Shown here piece after piece: positions 10,861-22,168 of a stretch of DNA of 24,136 nt. The notes beneath the pieces were generated by a model, which had not been told where the DNA came from, searched no databases, and saw nothing but the letters and a program-made list of their open reading frames with translations. Location of the stretch: positions 1 to 24,136 of IMG/VR virus record IMGVR_UViG_3300021959_000380. One strand, written 5' to 3'. Source of the stretch: a virus. Positions within the stretch are counted from its first letter, which is position 1, and every line of letters begins with the position of its first letter. The position numbers and the translations under genes were made by a program.

Positions 10861-10888
10861 ATTATAGTGCTGTTGACGTATTTGTCAA
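10861..10888 (-). promoter_or_regulatory. Sigma-70 promoter for the packaging/virion operon
   Basis: On the minus strand a perfect TTGACA (10888-10883) and a perfect TATAAT (10866-10861) are separated by 16 bases. Transcription would start about 7 bases after the -10 box, at or next to the A of the terS ATG (10853). Both boxes match the E. coli consensus exactly, so host RNA polymerase should recognise it strongly. The -35 box lies inside one arm of the inverted repeat at 10881-10908, suggesting repression or coupling with the divergent promoter. Confidence 0.85.
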
Positions 10889-10908
10889 GTAAAAAACAAC
10901 TTGACAAA
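10881..10908. promoter_or_regulatory. Inverted repeat (probable operator) joining divergent promoters
   Basis: A perfect 10-bp inverted repeat: TTTGTCAAGT at 10881-10890 and ACTTGACAAA at 10899-10908, with an 8-base A-rich spacer. Each arm supplies the TTGACA -35 hexamer of one of two promoters pointing away from each other. A dimeric regulator bound here would block both; alternatively the symmetry is a shared polymerase landing site. The octamer ACTTGACA recurs downstream at 11047-11054 and 11245-11252. Confidence 0.75.
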
Positions 10909-10929
10909 AAGCTATTCTGACTATATACT
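10901..10929 (+). promoter_or_regulatory. Sigma-70 promoter towards the early/replication genes
   Basis: A perfect TTGACA (10901-10906) and TATACT (10924-10929, five of six) are separated by the optimal 17 bases. The predicted start is near 10936, inside an imperfect inverted repeat. The first coding region follows about 800 bases later, so this promoter would drive a long leader or non-coding RNA through the hairpin array. Confidence 0.75.
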
Positions 10930-10978: not shown

Positions 10979-11039
10979 CTTTAAATACCCGCTATAAATA
11001 CTTTAGAATACCCGCCCAAAAACTTTAGAGTCCCGCCCC
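10979..11039 (+). repeat. Three tandem 22-bp iterons
   Basis: CTTTAAATACCCGC at 10979, CTTTAGAATACCCGCCC at 11001 and CTTTAGAGTCCCGCCCC at 11023 repeat at exactly 22-base intervals, about two helical turns. The consensus is CTTTARA(A/G)T(A)CCCGC. Such spacing suggests several copies of one protein binding the same face of the DNA, as at replication origins or cooperative operators. They lie 50 to 110 bases downstream of the early promoter. Confidence 0.6.
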
Positions 11040-11149
11040 GAGTATTACTTGACACTCTGAAGTTCTGTAAAATGTATAAGCATTAGTATATATAGGGGGG
11101 CGGGGGCATGGCCTCCTGCGTACCCCTTAGACTCAGCAGACTTCAGGAC

Positions 11150-11532
11150 TACTCTAAAGATACTTTAGAGTAACTTCGAGCTTTACTTCTCTGAAGTAAC
11201 TTTAAAAACTCTAAAGAATCTCTAGAGATTCTCCTAAATGTTTCACTTGACAAATTCTGGAGGATTCTAAAAGTCTTTAAAGTTTTAACTTTAAAGGTCT
11301 TGAAATCAAAGATTTCAAAGACTTGGGAAGTTTTCCACTCCTAGAATCTTCATAACATGAAGATTTATCAAGTTAACTACAAAGTAGTTAAAAAAAAGTC
11401 AACCAGAAATCTCCTCGCCTACATAGCGCGACCCCATAATCTTTGATTATGAATTATTTTCACTTTACTTCCCGCCAAAAATTTCCAACATGTGCGTGTA
11501 CATACATCACGCGAGAATGCTACGAAGTAGCA
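11150..11532 (+). repeat. Array of about ten hairpins, mostly with 3-base loops
   Basis: Consecutive inverted repeats with different arm sequences. Left arm and loop: 11150 TACTCTAAAG, ATA; 11183 TTACTTC, TCT; 11215-11232 an 18-bp perfect palindrome; 11275 CTTTAAAGTT, TT; 11297 GTCTTGAAATC, AAA (one bulge); 11345 AATCTTCAT, AAC; 11373 TTAACTAC, AAA; 11435 CATAATC, TTT; 11494 GCGTG, 9-base loop; 11518 TGCTAC, GAA. Arms of 6 to 11 bp are perfect except the bulge. Seven of ten have a triloop. The geometry is kept while the sequence is not, which suggests selection for structure in RNA or in single-stranded or supercoiled DNA. None has the T-tract of a terminator; two are followed by eight A's. 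Confidence 0.75.
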
Positions 11533-11753: not shown

Positions 11754-12272
11754 ATGACAGCACATACACAAAAGAAAGATCGACTCTGCTCTGCCAAGCA
11801 ATTCCGAGCCATAGTTTATAAATTCGCAAAGGTTGTACAGGAGCAGAAGAGTATACCTGACATGTACTGGTTTAGACTGTGGAAGCAGGTCGAAGCAGTC
11901 TTAGCTTCAAATAACCCGAAGGGTGTTACGAGTTTTCAGATTTCGGAGTGGTTTGAGTCTGATACATTGCCCGGCTATTTGCTTGCAAATTTACAGTTAG
12001 ATTTTGAGGGTCGTGGCAAGGCTAAAACGCACAAAGCTAATCGTAAGGTGAAGGCTGCACCCAAGCCTAAGGCGACTAAGACAGCACCTAAGCCGAAGGC
12101 AGAGCCGAAGCCTAAAGCGACACCAAAGCCTAAAGCAACGGCCAAGTCTAATGATCTTAAAGATCTTGAGATTCGGATGACGTTTGTTGAGGGTCAGGTT
12201 TCGGAAATGTCTGAATCTATAGAAACTATTAAATCAGGAATGGAATCTATCCTTGCTCATTTGCAAGGGTAA
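11754..12272 (+). CDS. Basic (KPKA)-repeat protein, first early gene
   Basis: The start is ATG 11754, with AGGAG 9 bases upstream; an upstream ATG at 11682 is open but has no ribosome-binding site. The 172-residue product has three parts. Residues about 1-80 are globular, with KQFRAIVYKFAKVV, MYWFRLWKQVEAVL and VTSFQISEWFESD. Residues about 85-130 are a tail of KPKA repeats (KAAPKPKATKTAPKPKAEPK) like histone H1 or bacterial H1-like proteins, which bind DNA. The last about 40 residues form a coiled coil (LEIRMTFVEGQVSEMSESIE) that would make it oligomeric. It is the first gene after the hairpin array. A DNA- or host-nucleoid-binding role is an inference from composition only; no family is recognised. 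Confidence 0.7.
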   Translation: MTAHTQKKDRLCSAKQFRAIVYKFAKVVQEQKSIPDMYWFRLWKQVEAVLASNNPKGVTSFQISEWFESDTLPGYLLANLQLDFEGRGKAKTHKANRKVKAAPKPKATKTAPKPKAEPKPKATPKPKATAKSNDLKDLEIRMTFVEGQVSEMSESIETIKSGMESILAHLQG

Positions 12273-12277
12273 TCTAA

Positions 12278-12334
12278 ATAACTTAAAAGCTCTTATTAAC
12301 TCTCAAGTTTCTTGAGAGAGTTAATAAGAGCTAA
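12278..12334 (+). repeat. 57-bp hairpin repeat, copy 1
   Basis: Identical over 57 bases to 12687-12743. Its core (12288-12332) is a long hairpin: a 20-base left arm pairs with a 22-base right arm (2-base bulge) around a TTT triloop. It begins 5 bases after the stop of the basic protein gene. There is no T-tract on the plus strand, so it is not a standard terminator for that gene; only a short T4 run follows on the minus strand. It could be an RNA-processing or stability element, or the recombination boundary of the cassette it flanks. Confidence 0.9.
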
Positions 12335-12336
12335 AG

Positions 12337-12686: not shown

Positions 12687-12743
12687 ATAACTTAAAAGCT
12701 CTTATTAACTCTCAAGTTTCTTGAGAGAGTTAATAAGAGCTAA
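12687..12743 (+). repeat. 57-bp hairpin repeat, copy 2
   Basis: Identical to 12278-12334 at all 57 positions, including the 2-base bulge and TTT triloop, and 409 bases further on. The flanks differ (A versus G before, A versus T after), so the repeat is sharply bounded. Lack of any mismatch points to a recent duplication, gene conversion or strong constraint. Confidence 0.9.
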
Positions 12744-12753
12744 TGAGCCGATT

Positions 12754-12942: not shown

Positions 12943-13182
12943 ATGAAGACTATATTGCACGTTAATCAGCATAACATCCGAGCTAATAGTAAAGGTGCTT
13001 ATGTAAAAGACTTACCCGTTCTTACTGTTAAAGATTATAAACAAAATAGAAAAGGTAATGAGGCAACAGTTAAAGATGCCGAAGGTAATGTTGTTGCTAA
13101 ATTAGTTTATCGTCCTGATAAACCTTTGAGTTGTGGTGCTAAAGTTTGGATTGAAACTGAATTAAATGTGGAGGTAGTATAA
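12943..13182 (+). CDS. 79-residue conserved-looking phage protein, unknown
   Basis: AGGAG lies 5 bases before the ATG. The product begins MKTILHVNQHNIRANSKG and ends with PLSCGAKVWIETELNVEVV, with alternating beta-strand-like segments between (LPVLTVKDY, EGNVVAKLVYRPDKP). I recall this pattern (HVNQH at the start, PLSCGA.VWIET near the end) in many phage genomes as a conserved hypothetical protein, with no assigned function. It is small, soluble and probably a beta-barrel. Its stop overlaps the GP88-like gene by one base (TAATG), so the two are translated together and may act together. Confidence 0.75.
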   Translation: MKTILHVNQHNIRANSKGAYVKDLPVLTVKDYKQNRKGNEATVKDAEGNVVAKLVYRPDKPLSCGAKVWIETELNVEVV

Positions 13183-13787
13183 TGTCTATACATTTCAGTA
13201 CGATGACAGGGAAACTTAAAGGGATTCCTGCAATAAATACTAACACTGTGACTAATGAGTTTTGTATCAAAATGAATAAAGCTGATGCAATTTGTAAATC
13301 TTGTTACTCAATGAACATGCTCAGCGGCTCCAGAAAAAACTGCCAGCCAGCCTTTGAAAGAAACTCAGTATTATTATCTATGGCAATACTAGATTACTCT
13401 GAGATTCCTACAATCAATGCAGCCTTCTTTAGGTTTCATGGTCACGGCGAATTAATAAATTATGTTCACATGGTTAACTTTCACAGAATAGCTTTAAAGA
13501 ATCCACACTGTAACTTTGCACTGTGGACAAAGCGACGGGATATCATTCGGCAGTATAAAAAACACAATGAGACTCCAGACAATCTTATATTAATTTATTC
13601 TAATCCAACGGTAAATGTTGTTAGAATAATGCCACCCAAAGGGTTTGATAAAGTCTTTAATGTTGTTCAAAAGGATCAGTATCAAGACGCACAAAACTGT
13701 ACAGGTCAAAACTGTATTGATTGTTTGGCTTGCTACAAACAAAGCGGTACAAATGTTATCACTGAAGCTATCAAAAAGAGGAGTTAA
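13182..13787 (+). CDS. GP88-like cysteine-rich protein (putative metal or Fe-S binding)
   Basis: GGAGG lies 7 bases before the ATG. The 201-residue product has two cysteine clusters. The first, residues about 28-41, is CIKMNKADAICKSCYS; the second, near 170-186, is CTGQNCIDCLACYKQ. Between them are RFHGHGELINYVHMVNFHRI and NFALWTKRRD, which follow the pattern of the phage 'GP88' family (CxxCY, R-x-H-x-x-G-D/E, then a YTK/WTK strand in a barrel-like fold). That family has no proven activity; the clustered cysteines suggest an iron-sulfur cluster or zinc. It sits in the early region and is coupled to the 79-residue gene. A role in host takeover or nucleotide chemistry is possible but not shown. 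Confidence 0.65.
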   Translation: MSIHFSTMTGKLKGIPAINTNTVTNEFCIKMNKADAICKSCYSMNMLSGSRKNCQPAFERNSVLLSMAILDYSEIPTINAAFFRFHGHGELINYVHMVNFHRIALKNPHCNFALWTKRRDIIRQYKKHNETPDNLILIYSNPTVNVVRIMPPKGFDKVFNVVQKDQYQDAQNCTGQNCIDCLACYKQSGTNVITEAIKKRS

Positions 13788-18121: not shown

Positions 18122-18541
18122 ATGGCTATAGTTTCTGGCGTTGCATATTGGGCGAGCATCACTCAACCAAATACAACTTATGAACCTGTATACACAGTGA
18201 ACGTGGTTGTCGATGACGATACTGCTGATAAATTTAGGGCAGAAGGTTACACTGTTAAAGACAAAGACGAGGGTCCGACAATCGTTATTAAACGTAAAGT
18301 TCATGGCCCTAATGGTATGGTCAGGTCTGCACCTGAGCTTATGGATCGCAGTAAGATGCCTATGGATTGCCAAGTTGGTAATGGCTCTACTGTTAACGTA
18401 CAGTACAAGCCTTGGGAAGTTACTCGTCAGGGTAAAGTCTACAAAGGTTTGGACTTGCAAAAGGTTCAAGTAGTTAACCTAGTACCTTACGGTAACGTAG
18501 ATGAGTTTGATGTAATTGATAATGAAGAGGAGGCTCTATGA
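18122..18541 (+). CDS. Single-stranded DNA-binding protein (gp2.5-like)
   Basis: AGAGG lies about 9 bases before the ATG. The 139-residue product has an OB-fold-like pattern: SGVAYWASITQPNTTYEP then YTVNVVVDDDTADKFRAEGY and GPTIVIKRKV, with later strands (STVNVQYKPWEV, VQVVNLVPYG). It ends with an acidic tail (VDEFDVIDNEEEAL) such as SSB and T7 gp2.5 proteins use to touch polymerase and primase-helicase. It coats single strands during replication and recombination. Its position just before the primase-helicase and PolA genes supports the call. The next gene overlaps by 4 bases and GAGGAGG for it lies in this tail. Confidence 0.82.
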   Translation: MAIVSGVAYWASITQPNTTYEPVYTVNVVVDDDTADKFRAEGYTVKDKDEGPTIVIKRKVHGPNGMVRSAPELMDRSKMPMDCQVGNGSTVNVQYKPWEVTRQGKVYKGLDLQKVQVVNLVPYGNVDEFDVIDNEEEAL

Positions 18542-18782: not shown

Positions 18783-20426
18783 ATGAGCTTTGTAAAATAT
18801 AAATTGCCATGTCCTAACTGCGGCGGTAGCGATCCAGTATCTATGAATGAAGATGGGTCTGCATGGTGCTTCAGTTGTGAAACTCGTTTTAAAAATTATG
18901 AGAAAGCTATGAACGGTGAAACAGTCAGTGACTTTAAAACTTATAAGAACAACTCAATGAATGATGTCGAGGGAGAATTTATTGCATTAAAGGACAGGTC
19001 GATATCTTTAGATACGGCTAAGAAGTTTGGGGTAAAAGCACATACCAATAGCAAGGGCGAAATAGTTAAGCACTACTACCCCTATTACAACGCTAATGAA
19101 ATTTCAGGTTACAAAGTACGTGAGGCAGGTAAGATCTTTAACTGGAAGGGCGACTCTAGAAGTTCTAGTTTGTTCGGTCAACAAGCCTTTCAAGAAGGCG
19201 GTAAGTATATAACAATTACCGAGGGCGAGTGTGATGCCATGGCTACTTATGAGCTTATGGGTTCTAGGTGGCCTGTAGTCTCGGTAAAGAATGGTGCTGC
19301 CGGTGCAGTAAAAGACGTTAGAGAAAACATAGAGTTTTTAGAAAAGTTTGGGACTGTTGTAATATGTTTCGACAATGACAAGCCGGGACAGGAAGCAGCA
19401 CGTAAAGTCGCCAAGCTACTAACTCCGGGTAAAGCTAAGATCTTTCAGTTTCCTGATGAGTTTAAAGATCCTAATGACATGCTACGTAATGGGCAGCATC
19501 AATCCTTTGTCACATCTTGGTGGGCTTCTAAGGTCTATACGCCTTCAGGAGTTCTTAACTTATCAGACAATCTAAATAAACTAAATCACCGAGAAAAGAA
19601 AGACTGTGTTCCATACCCTTGGTCAGGTCTAAACGAAAAGCTTTATGGGCTACGACAGGGTGAGCTGGTAACACTGACTGGTGGTACAGGCTTAGGTAAG
19701 TCTAGCATCACTAGAGAATTAGAACACTGGCTTATCAAAGAGACTCAAGACAATGTAGGAATCGTGGCTCTTGAAGAGGACTGGAAGCGTACCGCTGACG
19801 GCATCCTTTCTATTGAGGCTAATCAAAGACTATACATTGATCAGATCCGTGAAGACCTCGGTGAAGAGTATGACAACCTAAGTAATAAATTCTTTGAGCA
19901 GCACAAAGATCGTGTCTGGATCTATGCACACTTTGGTGCTAGTGACTTCGATGAAATCATGTCTAGAATTAGATACATGATTATAGGTTGTGGTTGTAAA
20001 TGGGTAATTGTAGATCACTTACATATGCTGGTTTCCGCATCGGATGAAAGCAACGAACGTATTCTAATTGATAGAATTATGACGCAGTTAAGAAAGCTTG
20101 TAGAACAAACAGGCGCTGGGCTAATCTTAGTATCTCATCTAAGAAGACTTGAGGGTAACAGGGGCCATGAGAATGGTGTCGAGGTTAACCTTAGTCACCT
20201 TAGAGGCTCCGGTGGTATAGCTCATATATCAGACTGTGTTATCGCTTTGGAGCGTAATCAACAAGCAGACAATCCTTTAGAAGCACAGACAACCCACATG
20301 CGTATTTTAAAGTCTAGATACACTGGTGATGTTGGAATGGCGACTCACTTGCTATATGATAAAGAAACTGGTAGGTTATCTGAAACCTTTCCTGATGAAG
20401 ATGAAATAGAGGAGATAGAGCTTTGA
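18783..20426 (+). CDS. Bifunctional primase-helicase (T7 gp4-like)
   Basis: The 547-residue protein unwinds the fork and makes primers for PolA. Domains in order: a zinc-binding domain with Cys 10, 13, 29 and 32 (CPNC then CFSC); a TOPRIM primase core with ITEGECDA (Glu 147) and ICFDNDKPG (Asp 197, Asp 199); then a RecA-like hexameric helicase with Walker A GGTGLGKSS (about 300-308, Lys 306), Walker B WVIVDHLHM (Asp 411), LVSHLRR (449-455) and a later region GSGGIAHISDCVIALERN with a likely arginine finger. The C-terminal tail is acidic (EDEIEEIEL), as in T7 where it contacts polymerase. The length matches T7 gp4 (566). No Shine-Dalgarno lies close to the ATG. The end overlaps the polymerase start by 4 bases. 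Confidence 0.95.
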   Translation: MSFVKYKLPCPNCGGSDPVSMNEDGSAWCFSCETRFKNYEKAMNGETVSDFKTYKNNSMNDVEGEFIALKDRSISLDTAKKFGVKAHTNSKGEIVKHYYPYYNANEISGYKVREAGKIFNWKGDSRSSSLFGQQAFQEGGKYITITEGECDAMATYELMGSRWPVVSVKNGAAGAVKDVRENIEFLEKFGTVVICFDNDKPGQEAARKVAKLLTPGKAKIFQFPDEFKDPNDMLRNGQHQSFVTSWWASKVYTPSGVLNLSDNLNKLNHREKKDCVPYPWSGLNEKLYGLRQGELVTLTGGTGLGKSSITRELEHWLIKETQDNVGIVALEEDWKRTADGILSIEANQRLYIDQIREDLGEEYDNLSNKFFEQHKDRVWIYAHFGASDFDEIMSRIRYMIIGCGCKWVIVDHLHMLVSASDESNERILIDRIMTQLRKLVEQTGAGLILVSHLRRLEGNRGHENGVEVNLSHLRGSGGIAHISDCVIALERNQQADNPLEAQTTHMRILKSRYTGDVGMATHLLYDKETGRLSETFPDEDEIEEIEL

Positions 20427-22168
20427 AGTCTTTAGTCTTTGACATTGAGACAGATGATCTTAATGCAACAAAAATATGGTGCTTGTCTGCCTTAGATATA
20501 GATACAGAAGTTCAAGTATCTTTCGGCCCTTCTCAGTTAAAGGAGGGCTTAGAACTTCTTAAGAATGCAGATAAGCTTATTGGTCACAACATCATAGGCT
20601 TTGATGTTCCTGTAATAAAAAAACTTACAGGTGTTGATCTAACAGATAAGGAGCTTGTAGATACTTTAGTTTTGTCACGCCTCTTTAATCCTGTACGAGA
20701 AGGTAATCACGGCCTTGAACGCTGGGGCTATGCTCTTGGTTCGCCTAAGATTGAGTTTGAAGAATACACAAGATATTCTGAAGAGATGCTTAAGTATTGT
20801 GAGCAAGATGTATTTCTTAACTACAAAGTTTACAATGAGTTAAAGAAAGAATCTAAAGGCTTTACAAAACAAAGCGTTGTTATAGAACATGAGGTATGTA
20901 AGATACTTTCAAAGCAAAGAGACTATGGCTTTCTGCTTGATGTAGAAGCTGCCTCTAAGTTACTAGCCCATCTTAATTCTAGAATAGATACAATTACTAA
21001 TGAGATACAGAAAGTATTTGTACCTAAGAAAGAATACAAAAAGATTTATCGGCGCTACAGCCCTAAAGGTAAGTTACTTAAAATAGGTCTGGATAACTTT
21101 GGTAAAGGCGTAAGGCTTACAACTGAAGAACATAAAACTTTAGAGCATGAAAGCCATGTAACAAGAGTATACACTAAAGACTTTAACCCCGGATCAAGGC
21201 AACAGATAGGTGAATACTTACAGGAGTTTGGTTGGAAGCCTCAAGAGTTTACACCTACGGGACAACCTAAAATAGATGAAAAGATATTGTCTGAGATTAA
21301 AGACATTAAAGAAGCAGAAGTAATAGCAGAATACTTAATGATTCAAAAAAGAGTTGCTCAAGTTAACTCTTGGTTAGATGAGTTAAATGAAGACACAGGA
21401 AGGGTGCATGGCTTTGTTAACCACAACGGAACCATTACAGGTAGGATGACACATAGAGGCCCTAACATGGCCCAGATACCCAGCCTGTCCTCTTCGTATG
21501 GTAAAGAGTGTAGGGCTTGTTGGTCAGTGCCTGAAGGTTATAAATTAGTAGGCATCGATGCTAGTGGTCTTGAGTTGAGAATGCTTGCTCACTATATGAA
21601 TGACAAGGAGTATACCGATGAAATCCTTAATGGAGACATACACACCGCTAATCAAAAACTTGCAGGACTTGAATCAAGAAATCAGGCTAAGACTTTCATC
21701 TATGCCCTTCTATACGGAGCAGGAGATGCTAAACTTGGAACAGTGGCAGGGGGAGGTAGAAATACTGGAAGGAACCTTAGAAAATCATTTATTGATAATC
21801 TCCCATCATTTAAGAATCTTAAAGATAGAGTCTCTAGAGCATCAGCAAAGAATTACCTCAAAGCATTAGACGGACGTAAGCTTTACATTAGATCAGAACA
21901 CAGTGCTTTAAATACATTGCTACAAGGTGCTGGAGCTATTGTCATGAAGCAAGCATTGATTTTATTAAAAGATAAGATTAGAGATTTAGATGCTCAGTTC
22001 GTAGCCAATGTTCATGATGAGTGGCAAATAGAAGTAAGAGAAGATCAAGCTGATGAAGTAGGTAGACTGGGTGTTGAAGCAATTATTGAAGCTGGTAAAG
22101 TGCTTGAACTTAAATGTCCTTTGGACGGTGAGTATAAGATAGGAGCTAACTGGAGTGAAACACACTAG
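20423..22168 (+). CDS. polA: DNA polymerase, family A (PolA)
   Basis: The 581-residue replicative polymerase has a 3'-5' proofreading domain and a polymerase domain. Exonuclease motifs are FDIETD (Asp 7, Glu 9), HNIIGFD (Asp 61) and YCEQD (Tyr 125, Asp 129). Polymerase motif A is DASGLELRML (Asp 379), the O-helix is RNQAKTFIYALLYG (Arg 419, Lys 423, Tyr 427), and motif C is VANVHDEWQI (His 531, Asp 532, Glu 533). It lacks a 5'-3' exonuclease domain and is shorter than T7 gp5 (704). The start is a TTG with GAGGAG 8 bases upstream; the first motif begins at residue 6 and no in-frame ATG exists before residue 122. Tyr 427 corresponds to E. coli Phe 762. Confidence 0.95.
   Translation: MKSLVFDIETDDLNATKIWCLSALDIDTEVQVSFGPSQLKEGLELLKNADKLIGHNIIGFDVPVIKKLTGVDLTDKELVDTLVLSRLFNPVREGNHGLERWGYALGSPKIEFEEYTRYSEEMLKYCEQDVFLNYKVYNELKKESKGFTKQSVVIEHEVCKILSKQRDYGFLLDVEAASKLLAHLNSRIDTITNEIQKVFVPKKEYKKIYRRYSPKGKLLKIGLDNFGKGVRLTTEEHKTLEHESHVTRVYTKDFNPGSRQQIGEYLQEFGWKPQEFTPTGQPKIDEKILSEIKDIKEAEVIAEYLMIQKRVAQVNSWLDELNEDTGRVHGFVNHNGTITGRMTHRGPNMAQIPSLSSSYGKECRACWSVPEGYKLVGIDASGLELRMLAHYMNDKEYTDEILNGDIHTANQKLAGLESRNQAKTFIYALLYGAGDAKLGTVAGGGRNTGRNLRKSFIDNLPSFKNLKDRVSRASAKNYLKALDGRKLYIRSEHSALNTLLQGAGAIVMKQALILLKDKIRDLDAQFVANVHDEWQIEVREDQADEVGRLGVEAIIEAGKVLELKCPLDGEYKIGANWSETH
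22139..22166 (+). repeat. 28-base duplicated polA-end/start-site repeat, copy 1
   Basis: ATAGGAGCTAACTGGAGTG followed by AAACACACT matches the copy at 22451-22478 at 25 of 28 positions. This copy encodes the last polymerase residues (IGANWSETH) and, in another frame, the AGGAG and GTG start of the next gene. Confidence 0.8.

Follow-up and report, generated by a model that had tools for sequence, protein, structure and literature searches.

A fixed-site array of perfect inverted repeats with changing arm sequences, adjoining an early gene family, in marine phages related to HTVC103P

Background

The promoters of the bacteriophage N4 virion RNA polymerase are DNA hairpins with a short stem, a 3-nt loop and a conserved sequence, and are served by a dedicated giant polymerase carried in the virion. 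The single-strand initiation hairpins of phages G4 and phiX174 and the ssi/sso sites of plasmids are few and sequence-specific. The mitochondrial genome of Nematomorpha, in which perfect coding palindromes occur, is copied by a T7-related replisome. Template switching between the arms of an inverted repeat leaves inversion of the loop (spacer) and homogenisation of the arms (PMC8604942, PMC8794818), and the T7 replisome switches templates at inverted repeats in vitro, its 3' exonuclease driving the switching (PMC9484634).

Here, we describe an array of short inverted repeats in a 24,136-base virus record from an uncultured marine phage (the window), together with its counterparts in related phages. 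The template-switch repeats of yeast genes and of rRNA and miRNA genes resemble this array in their perfect arms, compensatory multi-base changes and reverse-complemented loops, but they are scattered single events (PMC8604942, PMC8794818), whereas the phage array gathers up to about 20 hairpins at one fixed site. The Nematomorpha palindromes are, like the array, perfect, present also inside coding sequence and either sharply perfect or absent, but their arms reach 142 bp and they are spread over genes (PMC6649704), whereas the phage array combines short arms, minimal loops, a single locus and a link to one protein family. Chloroplast flip-flop small inversions, so far as the available part of their description goes, share with the array the inversion of loops between near-identical genomes, but involve single terminator-like hairpins rather than an array at a module boundary. 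The short stems, 3-nt loops and DNA-hairpin character of the N4 promoters recur here, but neither a conserved hairpin sequence nor a giant virion RNA polymerase is seen with the phage array. With the G4/phiX174 and ssi/sso sites the array has in common DNA hairpins near replication functions and stable triloops of the C-GNA-G type, but its hairpins are many and diverse in sequence, and an initiation role here is putative.

If the reading that we favour is right, the array is a natural case of a DNA shape conserved while its letters are rewritten, and is therefore invisible to ordinary sequence comparison. Loop flips would then serve as markers by which template switching could be counted directly within one genome family, and a marine phage lineage would have a candidate protein that binds hairpin DNA. 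Without any function, the array would still mark a clear hotspot, at one fixed genomic site, where palindromes arise and where mutation bias could be tested against selection.

Methods

Scans with terminase subunits retrieved several hundred loci, of which 286 were anchored at the terminase, 180 were non-identical and 119 remained after dereplication. Kinship among the sequences was handled by dereplication and by matched pairs, without a tree. Hairpins of the window array were counted as perfect inverted repeats that do not overlap and have a spacer of at most 4 nt. The arms of the rightmost hairpin (hairpin 9) were compared among relatives by eye.

Results

The DNA polymerase of the window phage is about 50-53% identical, and its terminase 64-67% identical, to those of the pelagiphages HTVC103P, HTVC104P and HTVC115P. 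The HTVC103P-related group carries packaging genes of the HMO-2011 type, and its G+C-richer members have been designated "group IV", with unknown hosts (PMC8528129); because its G+C content is 38%, the window phage probably belongs to group IV. Structural genes run leftwards and replication genes rightwards, and at the divergent junction of the packaging and replication modules the order from left to right is two back-to-back sigma70-like promoters, a conserved block, the hairpin array and the first early gene, ORF1. Both promoters were read in the sequence: a leftward one for the packaging genes (TTGACA-16-TATAAT; 10861-10888, minus strand) and the strong rightward P_R (TTGACA-17-TATACT; 10901-10929, plus strand), which has a counterpart of the form TTGACA-17-TATAMT in nearly all relatives. 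The position given in the initial annotation of this DNA, between packaging and replication modules and downstream of a strong promoter, is supported. Further to the right, the phage encodes relatives of a T7-type replisome, all on the plus strand: a gp2.5-like single-strand DNA-binding protein (18122-18541), a T7-gp4-like primase-helicase (18783-20426) and a T7-like DNA polymerase with a 3'-5' exonuclease motif (20423-22168), the last belonging to a class of enzymes for which template switching at inverted repeats is known.

The conserved block (11048-11127, plus strand) is 80 nt long, follows the pattern GTNNACA-N18-AAAATGTATA-N5-GTATATATA-(G/C tract)-TGGCCACCTGCC and was recognised in 90 of the 119 dereplicated loci. 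Within the window the core of the block is found at a single place, and the block contains an AT-rich stretch, TATATATA, followed by the G/C tract. Beyond the block related phages differ completely, which makes it a boundary marker. Among relatives, the G/C tract reads GGGGGNGGGGG, GGGGTACCCC or CCCCNCCCC at the same place, as if half-tracts had been inverted, and the sequences on either side of it, TATATATA and TGGCCACCTGC, stay fixed. The part of the leader between P_R and the block holds an imperfect 22-nt tandem repeat (CTTTAGAATACCCGCCCAAAAA; 10979-11038) with CCCGCCC motifs, whose distance from the block differs among close relatives such as L142, L146, L148 and L149, so that its copy number may vary.

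The array itself (11150-11532) comprises nine perfect inverted repeats. Hairpin 1 (11150-11172) has 10-bp arms and the loop ATA, hairpin 2 (11183-11199) 7-bp arms and TCT, hairpin 3 (11215-11232) 9-bp arms with a spacer of 0 and hence the physical loop CTAG, hairpin 4 (11275-11296) 10-bp arms and the spacer TT, and hairpin 5 (11300-11318) 8-bp arms and AAA. Hairpin 6 (11345-11365; 9 bp, loop AAC) carries TCT in L009 and L123 and different arms in L006; hairpin 7 (11373-11391; 8 bp, loop AAA) carries the inverted loop TTT in L009 and compensatory arms in L129. Hairpin 8 (11435-11451) has 7-bp arms and the loop TTT, and hairpin 9 (11518-11532) 6-bp arms and GAA, its site in relatives reading CACTAC-TAC/GTA-GTAGTG or TAGAAC-TAC-GTTCTA. 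The 383 nt form only the core of a wider zone: in relatives, hairpins extend to and into the first early gene.

The array is real, strong and non-random. The initial annotation had counted ten hairpins with arms of 5-11 bp, seven of them triloops; the seven triloops stand, while the count is corrected to nine and the arms to 6-10 bp. Against these seven triloops with arms of at least 6 bp, 2,000 dinucleotide-preserving shuffles gave a mean of 0.145 and a maximum of 3, and against the nine hairpins with spacers of 0-4 nt a mean of 0.75 and a maximum of 5. Folding the segment alongside shuffled controls, as had been proposed, gave an RNA folding energy of z = -8.1, equalled by 0 of 100 shuffles. 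Other 383-nt stretches of the window outside the zone hold at most 3 hairpins, versus nine here. As the annotation also held, these are not normal terminators: the stems are AT-rich, A runs follow two of the hairpins on the plus strand, and the intrinsic signature of a GC-rich stem followed by a T run is absent from the array hairpins. Nor is the array dispersed in the manner of REP or MITE-like elements, since its arms differ and its hairpins cluster at one site. The arms, described earlier as unrelated, do differ in sequence but draw on a common vocabulary across relatives (AAAGTCT, AGAATCT, CTCTAAA, AAACTCT), and are purine-rich outside and pyrimidine-rich beside the loop.

Of about 100 dereplicated HTVC103P-related relatives, most have hairpin arrays at this junction; the number of hairpins per relative ranges from 0 to 23, and arms are up to 33 bp long. 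Arm sequences differ between phages while pairing is kept, with physical loops of 3-4 nt, so that the earlier suggestion that the geometry itself is selected is borne out to the extent that geometry, not sequence, is conserved; the alignment of related phages, in which missing pairing would have counted against that suggestion, supports it in most relatives. Where a relative is complete or nearly so, its hairpins are concentrated at this single site, with densities of 7.4/kb in the zone, 1.0/kb in other intergenic DNA and 0.3/kb in coding sequence, and peak 100-400 nt after the conserved block. The notion that hairpins accumulate wherever coding constraint is absent is insufficient, other intergenic DNA being 7-fold poorer. 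Across 112 dereplicated regions, 247 perfect 8-bp stems were found versus 5.1 in shuffles. Spacers of 0, 1, 2, 3 and 4 nt (52, 29, 64, 83 and 65 cases) were all strongly enriched and those of at least 5 nt were much nearer background, a range that matches physical loops of 3-4 nt.

Hairpins are few or absent in about a third of the relatives that share the replisome and, in most cases, the block; the array is thus neither essential for replication in the family nor the essential origin of the whole family, and the proposal that a T7-like replisome alone makes arrays was rejected on the same ground. The cultured phages HTVC104P and HTVC115P have no comparable array at this junction. In L066, L125, L160, L257 and L289 hairpins also fill the ORF1 coding sequence; in L066, about 14 perfect hairpins are superimposed on it at about 600-1100 nt from terS, so that codons and pairing are constrained there at once.

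A hairpin selected as RNA tolerates G:U pairs but not A:C pairs. Among single non-Watson-Crick pairs in the stems of the 112 regions, the excess of G:T and A:C was 49.9 vs 44.2 at 8 bp, 15.3 vs 21.0 at 10 bp and 0.9 vs 12.8 at 12 bp, whereas E. coli rRNA and tRNA subjected to the same test gave 27 G:T against 14.2 expected and 15 A:C against 14.9. Single changes in stems counted by pairwise comparison comprised 13 A:C and 8 G:T. Because G:T and A:C are about equally tolerated, unlike in rRNA, the Watson-Crick constraint is strand-symmetric and looks DNA-level, a reading to which the enrichment of all spacers from 0 to 4 nt and the inversion of loops also point. Between the strands the loops are almost in balance, with 168 purine-rich and 132 pyrimidine-rich (p = 0.04). 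Folded DNA, not RNA, thus appears to be what evolution has kept; a mild excess of G:T over A:C at stems of 6-7 bp with loops of 3-9 nt makes a minor RNA component possible.

Loops on the same stems are inverted between phages, as in the pairs AAA/TTT, GAA/TTC and TAC/GTA: exact reverse complements account for 14 of 38 changed homologous loops in independent pairs and for 13 of 63 triloop allele pairs. In one comparison (L157 vs L124), a change from AAA to TTT in one loop is the sole difference over the aligned first 1.6 kb. Divergence per site is about three times lower in stems than in linkers (1.95% vs 5.9%, with 34 unalignable hairpins left out), and the stems contain 20 compensatory double changes versus about 3 expected, by our own estimate, from linker divergence. 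The array therefore combines the excess of perfect arms, the spacer inversion and the excess of compensatory changes that characterise inverted repeats maintained by template switching. These sequence patterns lend good support to a folded DNA form and to loop flipping, and template switching probably operates at this array. With arm conversion alone, pairs would be expected to change as fast as neutral sequence; the observed stems change more slowly, which favours, though not decisively, a constraint on pairing and hence selection.

ORF1 (11754-12272, plus strand), the first early gene, encodes a protein of 172 aa. Members of the family found in array-bearing phages have an N-terminal helical domain, a linker rich in Lys, Pro and Ala, and a long C-terminal helix (coiled coil), and the AlphaFold2 model has a pLDDT of about 90 in the N-terminal domain and C-terminal helix and below 50 in the linker. 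The structure had no match in the PDB or among viral structures, the protein belonged to no Pfam or PHROG family, and no match was found in isolated phages and none confirmed in bacterial genomes; ORF1 is a previously undescribed early protein without known fold. Its presence is associated with arrays (Mann-Whitney p = 3e-8), and in 39 disjoint terL-matched pairs the ORF1-bearing partner was richer in hairpins in 33 and poorer in 5 (p = 2e-6). Loci retrieved by ORF1 alone carry 9.4 hairpins per kb upstream of it versus 0.7 downstream. In pairs with 93-100% identical terminases, the sequence is shared as far as the block or slightly beyond it and differs completely from there on, which points to exchange of array and ORF1 as one unit. 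Their co-inheritance may come from adjacency alone, that is, from linkage, although the alternative early genes of array-less phages come without arrays. In L306, L323, L297, L020 and similar array-less relatives, 0.8-1.1 kb upstream of terS, ORF1 is replaced by another early protein family with an LTVKDGELVDV-like motif.

Discussion

The explanation that we favour, tentatively and with rather less than even confidence, is a DNA-level hairpin zone within a block-array-ORF1 module, kept perfect by template switching and used in early replication or control. The region downstream of the block would become single-stranded, at a replication start or in an R-loop, or strongly negatively supercoiled, and each inverted repeat would then close into a compact hairpin whose loop measures 3-4 nt. 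The T7-like replisome would switch templates as it copied the folded arms, and so yield perfect Watson-Crick stems, compensatory changes and flipped loops, with selection preventing stem decay. The folded hairpins, together with ORF1, would most likely serve early replication or early control as sites of docking or initiation.

We infer that the phage uses this folding, that ORF1 may bind the hairpins and that the zone may be where replication starts. A replication-initiation or early-control zone is the most likely function on points that are each circumstantial: the block is single-copy in the window and passes from AT-rich sequence to the G/C tract and then to folded DNA; a strong promoter points into the zone at a divergent module junction; and the phage brings its own replisome, but an RNA polymerase has not so far been found. 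A cruciform or single-strand initiation site, one of the roles suggested initially, is our leading functional guess from sequence. The GC-skew minimum lies at the array, but it coincides with the switch of coding strand and so proves nothing about an origin. The more specific proposal of a sequence-independent hairpin array, recognised by ORF1 to start replication or to switch early expression, and thus of a shape-defined cis element continually rewritten by template switching, is somewhat unlikely. The array may also have a packaging or pausing role.

The main rival, and a real one although we consider it somewhat unlikely, is a non-functional mutational hotspot in which template switching by the T7-like replisome or transcription-linked R-loops, acting in a weakly constrained and highly transcribed leader, create and perfect palindromes, which are then maintained in the manner of parasitic elements, a proposal made for the Nematomorpha mitochondrial coding palindromes (PMC6649704). 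Loop inversion and compensatory changes are just what template switching leaves, hairpin numbers vary from 0 to 23, and in some relatives the hairpins run into the ORF1 coding sequence; besides the Nematomorpha precedent, R-loop-driven quasipalindrome mutation is described in the available part of PMC3820800. A hotspot of this kind, however, fits poorly with the roughly sevenfold poverty of other intergenic stretches of the same genomes, with array-less relatives that have the same polymerase, primase-helicase and single-strand DNA-binding protein, with the tight link to one ORF1 family, and with stems that change about three times more slowly than linkers, unbiased arm conversion alone predicting the neutral rate. 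If the array were a structured early RNA, as also suggested initially, P_R would transcribe it as a 5' leader, and its hairpins would act on stability, antitermination, processing or the translation of ORF1. This is improbable: the location between a strong upstream promoter and ORF1, the folding z-score, the mild G:T excess at short stems and the C-G closing pairs and GNA loops, which also make good RNA loops, agree with it, but A:C is tolerated as well as G:T in 8-12 bp stems and in pairwise changes, in contrast to the E. coli rRNA control, loops invert freely, no canonical RNA tetraloop dominates, and an Rfam scan of the window and five relatives returned no match.

Two further readings take the palindromes as protein sites or promoters. 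That they are linear operators of a dimeric protein, or part of a packaging (pac/cos) region, rather than folded hairpins, is more doubtful still; arms share words such as AAAGTCT and AGAATCT, and the array adjoins terS with its conserved GC-rich block, but the interchangeable use of spacers from 0 to 4 nt, which in linear DNA would shift half-sites around the helix, the lack of a common consensus and the loop inversion, which implies folding, disfavour it. Contig ends, moreover, do not pile up at one position and no discrete genome end was seen; a genome end here was rejected, because contig ends scatter over the region, their mild excess inside the array probably reflecting assembly breaks. 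N4-type hairpin promoters for a phage RNA polymerase, which the initial annotation had raised as promoters read as hairpins, are highly improbable. Short stems and 3-nt loops recall them, and 7 of the 9 array loops have the 3 nt that, with a 5-7 bp stem, define the N4 type, but the arms here are 6-10 bp, stem and loop sequences are not conserved, and loops vary and invert. No protein longer than 1,610 aa, of the kind of the N4 virion polymerase, was present in three long relatives, whose contigs may be incomplete, and a search of 15 records for the T7-type RNA polymerase domain (PF00940) found none, with an uninformative control.

Other features of the early region

A 201-aa protein with several cysteine pairs and no PHROG match is encoded at 13182-13787 and, among the long relatives compared, is found only in the closest one (G001). 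A 55-nt element occurs in two near-identical copies (12280-12335 and 12689-12744), each directly after a stop codon. It had been considered as a cassette boundary, which was rejected because L009 and others also have two copies; two are likewise present in L123, and those of L009 show compensatory changes in the outer stem. The element is itself a hairpin of ~20 bp, CTCTTATTAACTCTCAAG-TTT-CTTGAGAGAGTTAATAAGAG, with a one-base bulge; in contrast to the array it is conserved in sequence, and it may be a terminator or an RNA-processing hairpin.
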